A DNA stretch of 64,000 bases from Rhodospirillaceae bacterium (lineage in GTDB: Bacteria > Pseudomonadota > Alphaproteobacteria > Bin65). The stretch's first letter is position 1. Every line of letters begins with the position of its first letter. Where the stretch lies: NCBI GenBank assembly GCA_028819475.1, contig JAPPLJ010000030.1, positions 62,001 through 126,000 on the forward strand, in the 5' to 3' direction. Below the pieces are notes generated by a model, which worked only from the letters and a program-made list of their open reading frames with translations, made no database searches and had not been told where the DNA came from. This document shows positions 43,236 through 48,324 of the stretch, in pieces. Both the position numbers and the translations under genes were made by a program.

Positions 43236-43446
43236 CCGAATAAACGACCGGGCCGGCAGGGGCAAAACCGTGCCGCCGGCCAATTCGACAGGCGATTGCC
43301 GTCTCAGAACCTCCGGGCGGGCCGCTTGGGCGCGCGCCGCCGCCTTGCGGAACTCAAGGCCGGGATGCCGCCAGGTCGGGGCGGCACTTGAACGGCGCGG
43401 GCGGTTCGGCTTTATAGGCGGGTCTTCATCGCCGGGAGCGCCCGCC

Positions 43447-44226
43447 ATGTACAAGCCGTTCGACCTGACCGGAAAGGTTGCGCTCGTCACCGGCGGCAAC
43501 GGCGGCATCGGCCTCGGCTTCTGCGAAGCGATGGCGCAGGCGGGCGCCGACATCTGCATCTGGGGCACCAACGCGGAAAAAAACGCCGCCGCGGCCGAAA
43601 CGCTGGCGGAGCCCGGCCGCAAGGTCCGTTCGCAGCAGGTCGACGTTTCGGACAGCGCCGCGGTCGAGGCCGCCTTCGCCGAGACCCTCGCCGAATTCGG
43701 CCGGGTCGACGGCGCGTTCGCCAACGCCGGGGTCACCGGCCGGAAACGCAGCTTTTTCGAGATCGACGACGCCGAATGGCAGCGCGTGATGCGGGTCAAC
43801 CTGGACGGCGCGTTCTACACCCTGCGCGCGGCGGCCCGGCACATGGTCGAGCGGGCGGAAGAGGGCGATCCCGGCGGCCGGCTGGTCGCCACGGCGAGCC
43901 TCGCCGCCCTCTCCGGCGCGGCGCGCAACGAGCATTACGGCGCAACCAAGGGCGCCGTCGTCTCGATGATCCGGGCGATGGCGGTCGATTTCGCGCGCTA
44001 CGGCATCACCGCCAACGCCATCCTGCCCGGCTGGATCGAGACCGACATGACCGAGACGCTGTTCGCCTGGGACCGGTTCGCGGAGGCCGCCCTGCCCCGC
44101 ACGCCCGCCGGGCGCTGGGGCCGGCCGGAGGATTTCGGCGGCATCGCCGTCTACCTGATGAGCGACGCCTCGGCCTTCCACACCGGCGACAGCCACCTGA
44201 TCGACGGTGGCTACTGGGTGTTCTAG
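43447..44226 (+). CDS. SDR family oxidoreductase whose 3' end is duplicated downstream
   Basis: A protein of 259 residues with VALVTGGNGGIGLGFCEAMA, AFANAGV, the catalytic tyrosine-lysine pair in NEHYGATKGAV, and the ending HTGDSHLIDGGYWVF. It is an NAD(P)-dependent short-chain dehydrogenase of unknown substrate. ATG 43447 follows a GGGAG site. The last 172 bases of the gene plus two bases beyond its stop (44055-44228) are repeated at 45817-45990 with one change, so the gene remains intact although foreign DNA follows it at once. Confidence 0.93.
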   Translation: MYKPFDLTGKVALVTGGNGGIGLGFCEAMAQAGADICIWGTNAEKNAAAAETLAEPGRKVRSQQVDVSDSAAVEAAFAETLAEFGRVDGAFANAGVTGRKRSFFEIDDAEWQRVMRVNLDGAFYTLRAAARHMVERAEEGDPGGRLVATASLAALSGAARNEHYGATKGAVVSMIRAMAVDFARYGITANAILPGWIETDMTETLFAWDRFAEAALPRTPAGRWGRPEDFGGIAVYLMSDASAFHTGDSHLIDGGYWVF

Positions 44227-44228
44227 GC
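44055..44228 (+). repeat. 174-bp direct repeat, left copy (3' end of the SDR gene)
   Basis: Identical to 45817-45990 except T versus C at 44208/45970, with no gaps. It ends two bases after the SDR stop codon. Together the two copies bracket 1,588 bp (44229-45816) holding the DGQHR gene. Confidence 0.97.
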
Positions 44229-44241
44229 CGCCCAGACTAGG

Positions 44242-44276
44242 CCTCCTAACCCGCCTCTACGAAGCGGGCTAGGAGG
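44242..44276. terminator. Hairpin at the left end of the DGQHR insert
   Basis: CCTCCTAACCCGC and GCGGGCTAGGAGG pair with one mismatch or G-U around a 9-nt loop. It lies 13 bp past the end of the SDR repeat and about 100 bp after the end of the DGQHR gene read from the other strand. It could terminate either transcript. There is no strong T-run, so a structural role at the insert boundary is also possible. Confidence 0.5.
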
Positions 44277-44377
44277 ATCACCTTGGCGTGTGTTGGCAAT
44301 CGCCTCGACGGGCAACTGGAGCAAATTTGGTGCCAATGCTGACTACCAGCACATTGCAGGCCTATACGAGACCTCGG

Positions 44378-45616
44378 TTACTCGACTTCCATATCGGGAA
44401 GATGGCGCAGGAGCATTGCCCGAAGAACCCGTTTGCCGGCGCTTGAGGAAAAACCGCCAGCGGCGCCGCCCTTCGGTGCAACAAGCCAAAACTCCGGGCT
44501 TTGAACGGTTTCGCCATCGGTGTTGTCGCCATGAACATTTTCGAAGACCGGAGCCAGCAGGTCCACATATGCTGCACTGTCGAACACACTTGCACCCCGA
44601 GAACGTACATGTTCGAGAACAACGAGTAAGAGTTCGTGCATCGCAGTAACGCCGATACCCTTCTGTAAGGTGAAGTCCGACGGCCGGAATTCGAGATCGC
44701 CGTCGCTGCCGTACTGCCCTTCGAACGGCTGGGGGCACACTTCTTTGACCGCTTTCCAAAACGCATTCAGTACCCGGACCTGATTTTCAGTACCGAGCTG
44801 CCCGAAGTAGTGACTGCTCACCAACGGTTTCAGCGAACTGATGAAGCTCGCGGCCGGTATGATCTTGTCACCCTTGTCTTCGTTTGCGAGGCGGATCCGG
44901 TCTTTCCAGATGGGCGAAGTTTTGTTCAAGACATCCACAAGGCATTGACCACTGATCTGCCAAGCCTTGTTATCCCGGATTGCCTGATCCATCACCTTCC
45001 CATCGTGGTCGGTCTGCTGTTTCAACAGGTCGAACGCTAGGTCTGTTTTCACCGATTTGGCGTTGCTGTTTACGACGTAGAATTGCCGCAATTCCTGATG
45101 TTCGTCTGCACCGAGCATCAAGACGAACGGTACAGAAAAGTTTTTCCAGACTTCGAGATCTTCTTCGCAAAGCTGCCGTATTGCCAGAACGCGGTGCTGA
45201 CCATCAACGACGTAGAGCGAAAACGATTCGTCGGCAGAATCTATCTCGATTGATCCGCCTTTCGCCATTTCGATGAGATGCTCAGCGTGCCGTTCCCGAA
45301 CATTCAGCAAGACCGCCGTTGGTATGTCGACGGTTTCAGCCCTTAGGTCTTTTGCCAGTTTGCTCACCCGACCCGGTTGCGGCTTGCGCTGGTACCCGGT
45401 CTTGCGGAGCGAATCGCGATACGGAACCTTGAAGCGGCACGCCAAGACGCCAGCCGGTATGCATCCAACGACGGTAGGAATCCCGCTGCTGACCGTTGGG
45501 CCCATTACGACAGGTATAGTCACGGATGCCTCCAAGCGTCTTGGGATGTCGCTGAGAGAAATGGAGATTTCGTCCTCGACGGGTGCGTTTTGCCTCGCCA
45601 GGTCTAGGTCAGTCAT
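44378..45616 (-). CDS. DGQHR domain-containing protein
   Basis: A protein of 412 residues. The signature YVVDGQHRVLAIRQL lies near residue 139 and NVRERHAEHLIEMA precedes it. Length and motif match DGQHR proteins, a group that includes DndB, the regulator of DNA phosphorothioation, and relatives in other defence loci. No dndACDE genes are near, so a DndB role is not supported. ATG 45616 is chosen because the open frame upstream translates the leader hairpins. The gene is clearly lower in GC than its surroundings and is the only gene in an insert bracketed by a 174-bp repeat. Confidence 0.85.
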   Translation of the reverse strand: MTDLDLARQNAPVEDEISISLSDIPRRLEASVTIPVVMGPTVSSGIPTVVGCIPAGVLACRFKVPYRDSLRKTGYQRKPQPGRVSKLAKDLRAETVDIPTAVLLNVRERHAEHLIEMAKGGSIEIDSADESFSLYVVDGQHRVLAIRQLCEEDLEVWKNFSVPFVLMLGADEHQELRQFYVVNSNAKSVKTDLAFDLLKQQTDHDGKVMDQAIRDNKAWQISGQCLVDVLNKTSPIWKDRIRLANEDKGDKIIPAASFISSLKPLVSSHYFGQLGTENQVRVLNAFWKAVKEVCPQPFEGQYGSDGDLEFRPSDFTLQKGIGVTAMHELLLVVLEHVRSRGASVFDSAAYVDLLAPVFENVHGDNTDGETVQSPEFWLVAPKGGAAGGFSSSAGKRVLRAMLLRHLPDMEVE

Positions 45617-45668
45617 GTATACTACTCGTGTTGATGAGCGGGCATTCCTTATGCTCCGCAGATTGGAG

Positions 45669-45725
45669 GGCCCCGGCGGTGCGACGCCGGGGCCTTCGTC
45701 GTTTCGACGGATCGAACCGACGAAG
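45669..45725 (-). promoter_or_regulatory. Two tandem leader hairpins of the DGQHR gene
   Basis: On the minus strand, read 5' to 3': the first stem spans 45725-45694 (13 of 14 pairs, 4-nt loop). The second spans 45694-45669 (GGCCCCGGCG with its complement, 10 perfect pairs, 6-nt loop). They abut and end 52 nt before ATG 45616. A TTGACA at 45763-45758 lies upstream, although its -10 box is unclear. This looks like a structured mRNA leader. Confidence 0.6.
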
Positions 45726-45766
45726 GCGCTGCAACGAAACACATATGAGGGCAATTGTCAAGGCCG

Positions 45767-45799
45767 AAAAATGGGACCTGATTTTCAGATCCCATTTTT
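45767..45799. terminator. Strong AT-flanked hairpin at the right end of the DGQHR insert
   Basis: AAAAATGGGA and TCCCATTTTT are perfect complements, with a further CTG/CAG pair inside. The A-run and T-run make it a terminator in either direction. It lies between the start of the DGQHR transcription region and the right repeat copy. Confidence 0.7.
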
Positions 45800-45816
45800 C
45801 GTATTCGAAGTGCAAT

Positions 45817-45990
45817 GACGCTGTTCGCCTGGGACCGGTTCGCGGAGGCCGCCCTGCCCCGCACGCCCGCCGGGCGCTGGGGCCGGCCGGAGGATTTCGG
45901 CGGCATCGCCGTCTACCTGATGAGCGACGCCTCGGCCTTCCACACCGGCGACAGCCACCTGATCGACGGCGGCTACTGGGTGTTCTAGGC
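45817..45990 (+). pseudogene. Displaced 3' end of the SDR gene (right copy of the 174-bp repeat)
   Basis: It repeats 44055-44228 with one substitution. An ATG formed at the junction (45815) would allow a 57-residue in-frame fragment ending HLIDGGYWVF, but it lacks the Rossmann domain and active site. It most likely is the original end of the SDR gene left behind when the DGQHR insert arrived carrying, or generating, a second copy. Confidence 0.9.
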
Positions 45991-46040
45991 GTCGCGCCGT
46001 ATCGAGAGCCTGCCCTGAGCCTGTCGAAGGGGACGCAGGA

Positions 46041-46616: not shown

Positions 46617-47399
46617 TCAGCCGGCATCGCTGGTGACGTGGGAATGGAATGTGCCGCCCGCCAGATGTCCGGCGAGGCAGGCCGAAAGATCGAAGTCCGG
46701 GTCGGCGGCGACGCCGGCAGCGGCAGCTTCACCGAGCGTATCGCGGGCGGCAAGCGCGCTGAGGAAGGCGAAGTCGCCGTGCGTCGCCATGACCACGTCG
46801 ACCTTGCTTTCCGGCCGGCGCACCAGCACGCGCTGCCCGCCCTCCTGCTTTCCGGGCGGCCCGGGATCCGGCCCCGAATCCGGTAGCGCCTCGGCGCCCC
46901 ACAGGTCCCAGACCGGCCAGTCCGATTCGATCAGGCGTACCGTCGGATGCAGCCCGAGGCGCAATCCGGCATAGCGTTCCGGCGCCAGTCCGGCGAGCTG
47001 TCCGGCGTTCAGCATTTTGGCATCGGCCTCGAAATAGGCCTCGTTCACCGCCCACTCGACCCGCGCGAGATCGGGCAGGAAGGGCAGTTCCTCGACCGCC
47101 GGCGCAAAGCCGGCCAGGAAGGCCGCGAAGTCGCCGCCATAGGCGAACAGCTGGGGCCGTTGCGGCGGGTATTCCGCGATAAACCGCCGGGCCAGCACGG
47201 TGAATTTCTCATCGCCGACCAGATTGCGGACGGTCGGGAACGCGGCCTCGAGCACGCCGGCCAGCGACCGGTAGATATTGTTCCGGTAAATGCCGAAGCG
47301 ATGGCCGTTCTGCATGCCGCCGGCGGAAAGGGCCGCCACCGCCTCGCCGTCGCGGCCGATCGTTGCGGCGCGGAAGGCGGCTTGCAGGTCAGGCAACAT
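46617..47399 (-). CDS. DUF2063 (HvfC/BufC-type) MNIO partner protein
   Basis: A protein of 260 residues starting [15 protein letters not shown], with the conserved [20 protein letters not shown] and [23 protein letters not shown]2063 proteins bind the precursor peptide and deliver it to the neighbouring DUF692 oxygenase in ribosomal-peptide pathways. ATG 47399 overlaps the end of the MNIO gene by 11 bp, so coupling to it is expected. The frame is intact although the MNIO gene is interrupted. Confidence 0.92.
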
Positions 47400-48324
47400 C
47401 GTCCAGAATCCGGGGCTCGGGCCCAAGCCTGTCCAGCGCCGCCTGCGCCCGCGCCGCTTCGCCGAGCAGGGTGTCGAGCGGCGGCAGGTCCAGATCCCAT
47501 TCCATGAGAACCGGTTTCGGCCCGACCCGCGCGAGCGCGGTATCCAGCAGGTCCCAGACCGCCTCTTTCACGGTCGATCCGTGATCGTCGATCAGCACCG
47601 GCCGGCCGTCCCACTCCGTATCGGCGTGGCCGGCGATATGGATTTAGCCGACCAGCTCGCCGGGAATCGCATCGATAAAGTTCAGCGCGTCGTAGCCGTG
47701 GTTGAAGGCGCTGACATGGATGTTGTTGACGTCCAGCAGCAGGCCGCAGCCGCTGCGCTTCGCCGCTTCGACGCAGAATTCCCATTCCGGGATCGCCGAT
47801 TCGGCGAAGGTGACGTAGGAGGACGGATTTTCGATCAGGATGGTCCGGCCGAGTGCGTCCTGCGCCTGGCCGATGTTGCGCACCAGGGTGTCCAGCGCCT
47901 CTTCGGTATAGGGCAGCGGCAGCAGGTCGTTCAGATAGTCGCCGCCGGTCGTGCTCCAGGAGACATGCTCGGAAACCAGGCCGGGCTCGAACCGGTCGAA
48001 CAGGGACCGCAAAAGCGCAAGATGGGCGGTATCAAGCCCTTCGGCACTGCCGAGCGACAGGCCGACGCCGTGGCAGCTCAGGGGATAGTCCCGGCGGATC
48101 GCCTCGAGCGTCGCCAGCCGCGGACCGCCCGGGCACAGATAGTTTTCCGAATGAACCTCGATCCATGCGGTCGCCGGCCGGCCGTTCAGGAAGTCGCCGT
48201 AATGGGTATGGCGCAGGCCGATGCCGGCGGCGGCGGGGACCGGATCGCGCGCGAAAGCGTCAGCCAGCCCGGTCCCGTGTTCGATGGCCCCGTGTTCGAT
48301 GGCCATGCCGTCCCCTGCCGCCAT
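47389..48324 (-). pseudogene. DUF692 multinuclear iron oxygenase (MNIO), interrupted by an in-frame stop
   Basis: The frame encodes the DUF692 barrel: [57 protein letters not shown]. At codon 227 (47646-47644) a TAA stands where the family usually has an amino acid before IHIAGH. After it the same frame continues with [20 protein letters not shown] and [14 protein letters not shown] to the normal end at 47389. The part after the stop holds conserved metal-site residues, so the 226-residue product should be inactive. A single base change or a sequencing error explains it. Intact, it would modify cysteines of the DUF2282 peptide. Confidence 0.9.

Follow-up and report, generated by a model that had tools for sequence, protein, structure and literature searches.

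The window, that is, the whole 64,000-nt stretch of DNA that was analysed, carries on its minus strand a stand-alone gene of the DGQHR family, preceded by two adjoining GC-rich hairpins and lodged behind an intact gene of the SDR family. The parts of the locus are as follows; L004 is the one close homologue, described below.

43423-44226, plus strand: intact SDR-family host gene (open reading frame list, profile match)
44055-44228, plus strand: direct repeat copy 1, the last part of the intact SDR gene including its stop codon (99.4% over 174 nt)
44235-45816, no strand: inserted unit that sibling genomes lack (left edge inferred)
44378-45616, minus strand: DGQHR-domain gene P0001, 412 aa (profile matches to TIGR03187 and PF14072)
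45669-45694, minus strand: hairpin 2 (sequence and fold; the same in L004 with one C-G to U-A change)
45695-45724, minus strand: hairpin 1, the 5' hairpin of the putative leader (sequence and fold; the same in L004 with one C-G to U-A change)
45756-45761, minus strand: TTGACA, a candidate -35 box in a conserved block, GGCCTTGACAATT; the hairpin follows 28 nt on (29 in L004)
45765-45801, no strand: AT-rich palindrome upstream of the -35 box, with 17-nt arms that are 94% complementary (inverted-repeat search)
45817-45990, plus strand: direct repeat copy 2, a second, detached copy of the SDR 3' end beyond the insert (repeat comparison)

The protein carries the DGQHR motif and scores 98.6 bits against TIGR03187 (cut-off 58.85), which places it in the DGQHR domain family; it also matches PF14072 (DndB) at 43.7 bits, above the cut-off of 29.1. 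It falls well short of the models for the characterized members: 19 bits against the 328 required by the DndB equivalog TIGR03233, and 53.4 against 300 for the DpdB equivalog NF041060. The DGQHR domain is likened to the GmrS domain of the ParB/sulfiredoxin fold (PMC4619093), and DndB is described as a ParB superfamily protein (PMC12839542). The AlphaFold model is poor (mean pLDDT 48.4) and no conclusion was drawn from it, and a sequence search of the PDB gave no relative (best E 0.59).

Gene and hairpins lie between the two 174-nt direct repeats, 44055-44228 and 45817-45990, which are 99.4% identical; copy 1 is the 3' end of the intact SDR gene. The SDR gene is present in six sibling genomes, none of which has a DGQHR homologue at E<=1e-20. 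At four of the six sibling loci (L012, L013, L015 and L016) the site is empty and the SDR gene is followed by DoxX, as on the far side of the insert; downstream DNA differs in L014 and L017. An empty site together with a duplicated target is what insertion with target duplication leaves behind. The left edge of the insert is put at 44235, because L012 and L015 match the window through TAGGCCGCCC and differ from it thereafter. Both repeat copies are 93-97% identical to five siblings and 78% identical to the sixth; the duplication is therefore recent. Within the insert the DGQHR gene is the one gene recognised; the open reading frame list has others there. Beyond the second repeat copy, 46015-46031 (CCTGAGCCTGTCGAAGG) is part of a REP-like intergenic repeat that varies between siblings at the site. 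Farther on, a RiPP enzyme gene of the MbnB/TglH/ChrH type (47392-48324) appears frame-broken, with profile positions 2-194 and 208-262 in two frames; it sits in a DoxX / DUF2063 / DUF2282 cluster, which we take to resemble bufferin operons.

Among 84,980 species genomes, one scan turned up a single close homologue of the gene, in a Defluviicoccus metagenome-assembled genome (locus L004; 84% aa identity). There the unit is preceded by the end of a RidA-like gene (PF01042) and followed by a decayed, incomplete duplicate of that gene's 3' end; this repeat covers 93 nt at 94%, and more pieces of it come after a 167-nt internal gap. In window and L004 alike, the repeats extend only a few bases past the stop codon. 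No such repeat of a host-gene end was found in the DNA covered at four further loci (L005-L008). Long duplication of a host-gene end at two separate insertions is odd, and nothing found explains it. Literature on long target duplications, leader autoregulation and DpdB, as far as the available texts go, offered nothing fitting apart from PMC12839542.

The two hairpins themselves are confirmed. Read in the sense of the message, hairpin 1 is followed directly by hairpin 2, and 52 nt then lead to the ATG at 45616, the distance given in the first-pass annotation. Hairpin 2 has 10 perfect pairs and a 6-nt loop, UCGCAC; hairpin 1 has a 13-position stem with one G·A mismatch and a 4-nt loop, UCCG. 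The annotation had described the same abutting stems, and its perfect stem and both loop sizes hold; its count of 14 positions for hairpin 1 takes in one base shared with hairpin 2 and comes to 13 without sharing. A still longer version of hairpin 1 can be drawn, with arms 45692-45707 and 45712-45727 that are 94% complementary around the 4-nt loop; its three outer GCC/GGC pairs (45692-45694 with 45725-45727) compete with hairpin 2. The abutting order of the two stems had been called unlikely by chance. That judgement is right for the pair taken together: the 67-nt double hairpin folds at -39.6 kcal/mol (z -5.07), and none of 200 shuffles was equally stable; the homologous strand in L004 gives z -6.36, again with 0/200. 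It does not extend to a single 10-bp stem, which is ordinary in this GC-rich window, because the window has 4 stems of at least 10 bp with loops of 3-8 nt, and 10 dinucleotide shuffles of it have 0-4 apiece. Two ready classifications were tried and rejected: a REP-like repeat, as DNA similarity search finds the double hairpin in a single copy in its own genome, and a known Rfam family, as no match was found in the window at gathering thresholds. At the same thresholds, the only match in L004 is a SAM_alpha riboswitch downstream of the unit.

The Defluviicoccus locus L004 has both hairpins at matching distances from the ATG and the upstream TTGACA: 28 nt (window) and 29 nt (L004) separate TTGACA from the hairpin, and 111 and 112 nt separate the hairpin start from the ATG. 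The main DNA match runs from the GGCCTTGACAATT block, 28-29 nt before hairpin 1, to the stop codon of the gene. Above it only a 12-nt block, GGATCTGAAAAT, stands out; it lies within the palindrome at 45765-45801 as the only part of it common to L004, at a different spacing. An alignment of 68 columns over the hairpins has 9 substitutions in 66 compared columns (57/66 identical). Four of the nine fall in paired columns, where they make up two complete C-G to U-A exchanges, one per hairpin, and none of the 21 pairs is broken; for random placement of nine substitutions, P is ~2e-4 (uniform), 0.002 (80% transitions) or 0.006 (transitions only). Three of four loop bases in hairpin 1 and five of six in hairpin 2 are kept, as are the purines of the asymmetric internal-loop mismatch. 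The hairpins are 52/59 identical, against 15/29 between TTGACA and the hairpin and 31/55 between hairpin and ATG (52-56%); DNA upstream of the -35 block is 25/52 identical. In the coding sequence 972/1236 positions are identical, with 230/412 at third codon positions; of the 59-nt coding windows, 35 out of 1178 have at least 52 identities, and of the 66-nt ones 47 out of 1171 have at least 57. The hairpin stretch is thus conserved like the best-conserved coding stretches, and stands apart from the remaining leader. Covariation drawn from two sequences is suggestive of conserved pairing and is not proof of it.

Farther afield the element is lost from view. Three more distant homologues (L005, L006 and L007, at 47, 37 and 34% identity) had no match to an RNA model of the element before their genes, with search filters off as well. 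In L006, L007 and the Roseomonas plasmid homologue L060 (~23% identity) the leader folds no better than shuffles; that of L005 reaches z -2.12, but with a different, AT-rich pairing. On these comparisons the two-hairpin element is confined to one small branch, because homologues at 47% identity or less lack it. The first-pass annotation had proposed that compensatory changes in the leaders of DGQHR homologues would support its reading: the one close homologue supplies two, with the same pairing, and the more distant ones none. Its designation of the hairpins as the leader of the DGQHR gene accordingly finds support for this small branch and not for DGQHR genes in general. Beside two of the distant homologues lie similar divergent genes, nuclease-like in appearance by eye (L006:2889-3689, 266 aa, and L007:3049-3825, 258 aa); just behind the L005 homologue (L005:2623-2740) is a sequence that resembles a tRNA, its anticodon region apparently enlarged by extra nucleotides, also judged by eye.

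Further searches for homologues of the gene brought little. Counting its own genome, homologues occur in 5/385 genomes of the class and 1/11 of the order (1e-20) and in 1/398 of the phylum (1e-40). Twenty plasmid records match the protein, the best at ~27% identity; phages gave no match. A protein search of viral contigs returned no relatives, and an alignment search returned four loci at 23-29% identity. Of the sets of loci that DNA patterns picked out in viral contigs, one scores 14-17 bits with the RNA model and another has no match to it at E<=0.01. At that threshold the model matches in 25/385 genomes of the class, own genome included, at 24-37 bits in the others against 98; the 8 of 34 places that were read as alignments look like terminators or chance. 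At one of them (L027:1501-1560), GGTTCGACCCGTCGAAACGACAAAGG with a terminator hairpin behind an unrelated gene comes near hairpin 1 in sequence, a likeness that is probably due to chance.

These observations are best understood by placing the hairpins in the message. Probably they are a genuine control element of a gene that was inserted recently; that they form a structured cis-acting leader of the DGQHR mRNA, kept by selection, is a reading to which we give about an even chance. Transcription would start from the TTGACA-containing block some 28 nt upstream of hairpin 1; the message would begin at or in hairpin 1, run through hairpin 2 and meet the ATG about 111 nt on. A -10 box near the candidate TTGACA is not clear, and promoter consensus scans of the window and L004 called nothing at the TTGACA/hairpin site. 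The most likely role of the hairpins would then be post-transcriptional control of the gene, by autogenous binding of the DGQHR protein or binding of another factor, by protection of the 5' end, or by both; the partner and the direction of control are inferred. Binding of the leader by the DGQHR protein itself is possible. Leader, promoter and gene would have travelled as one unit, recently inserted behind the SDR gene. What favours action as RNA is the conservation of the loops and of the asymmetric mismatch purines, which fit an RNA better than a symmetric DNA site. Several observations pull the other way: a symmetric DNA operator would also be expected to show compensatory changes in its inverted repeat; the element is present in just two sequences, and coding windows can equal its conservation (35/1178); six of the nine differences are third-position changes in one reading frame; and the homologues at 47%, 37% and 34% are without it.

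The natural rival locates the function in the DNA, because a superfamily member, DndB, binds palindromes in its own promoter: that of Salmonella binds two TACGN10CGTA palindromes there (PMC4507180). The inverted repeats would then be double-stranded operators at which the DGQHR protein, like DndB, represses itself through palindromes that cover its promoter and start site, with the RNA hairpins a by-product. Besides the DndB precedent, membership of the gene in the DGQHR/DndB families speaks for this, as does the position of the hairpins, about where promoter and start are expected; moreover, TTGAC is preceded or surrounded by GATCT-type sites in the window, L004 and L005, with none near TTGAC in L006 or L007. 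Conserved loops and an asymmetric mismatch are unexpected of a dimer site, however; the two adjacent stems differ; and L005, at 47% identity, shares the GATCT sites and not the hairpins, so that the actual operator may lie at those sites. An operator at the hairpins is possible, though we think it doubtful. A different use of the RNA would make hairpin 2 the stem of a terminator, serving as a leader attenuator or source of a short RNA, or insulating the inserted unit when read from the opposite strand. The stem type GGCCCCGGCG...CGCCGGGGCC does occur just behind open reading frames, with T-rich tails, in three of eight loci read (L023, L025 and L027), and the antisense tail in L004, CCTTTGTCGTTT, is somewhat T-rich. 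Yet no terminator was called at the hairpins on either strand in window or L004; the sense tails after hairpin 2, CCCTCCAATC or CCCTTTAAC, have no U-tract, so the GC-rich stem followed by a T run that marks an intrinsic terminator or attenuator is absent at the hairpins; and the conservation of hairpin 1 with its loop is left unexplained. The attenuation suggested in the first-pass annotation is accordingly unlikely in its classical form, and the terminator reading as a whole is improbable.

Two further accounts were weighed. The hairpins might serve movement of the inserted unit and not expression, as recognition sites for a recombinase acting in trans: the gene and its leader do lie between 174-nt repeats of a host-gene end, the siblings have empty sites, and the L004 homologue too stands beside a repeated host-gene 3' end. 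The hairpins are internal, however, and keep their distance to the ATG, while the edge of the unit is ~90 nt away here and ~400 nt away in L004; this account is very unlikely. Alternatively, the stretch might code for protein, as an upstream open reading frame or N-terminal extension to which the hairpins are incidental. The third-position differences (6/9) speak for this; the peptides of that frame, AFVGSIRRNDEGPGVAPPGP and AFVGSIHRNDKGPGVAPPGP, are alike, and in the window the frame is open into the gene. Against this, the L004 counterpart of that frame meets a stop just upstream, is not in register with the gene and offers no ATG, GTG or TTG start ahead of or inside the hairpins. A different L004 frame does run on into the gene; its counterpart in the window closes before reaching the gene, and the differences sit mostly at its second positions. 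A leader peptide or N-terminal extension shared by window and L004 was not found, and with the L004 frame startless and out of register the coding account is largely rejected: we regard it as extremely improbable.

A bolder version of the RNA reading joins protein, promoter and double-hairpin RNA in a one-gene mobile unit that inserts behind host genes and duplicates their 3' ends, in which the RNA would be the working partner of a ParB/sulfiredoxin-like protein (regulator, guide or inhibitor) and no passive leader; we hold this to be a long shot. The more modest proposal, a structured leader, would if true already add an RNA element that the searched Rfam release does not contain, one that controls a stand-alone gene from a protein superfamily linked to DNA modification and restriction; it would likewise offer a small, testable model for the regulation of orphan genes that move.

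Among known systems, the insertion can be compared with integrative elements such as the icd-integrating phages, which leave a duplicate of their target gene's 3' end. The layout is alike: an intact host gene, an insert, and a second copy of the gene end. Here, in contrast, one gene is recognised and no integrase, and the targets differ (SDR, RidA-like). Hairpin 2 has the same type of stem sequence as the GC-rich intrinsic terminators of alphaproteobacteria that the RNA model matched, but it precedes a gene and has no T run. Ribosomal-protein genes carry structured autogenous leaders at the 5' end of their messages; the element resembles such leaders in its conserved stems with compensatory changes, placed at the 5' end of the message of one gene, and differs in that the hairpins in window and L004 have no Rfam match at gathering thresholds. 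The closest comparison by protein is DndB of Dnd phosphorothioation, which belongs to the same superfamily (DGQHR motif; PF14072) and likewise has inverted repeats before its own gene (PMC4507180). As described there, DndB acts on DNA, at TACGN10CGTA, and from within the dnd operon (PMC4507180); the present gene stands alone, its product scores 19 bits against the 328 of the DndB equivalog, and it is preceded by long, adjacent hairpins with conserved loops.
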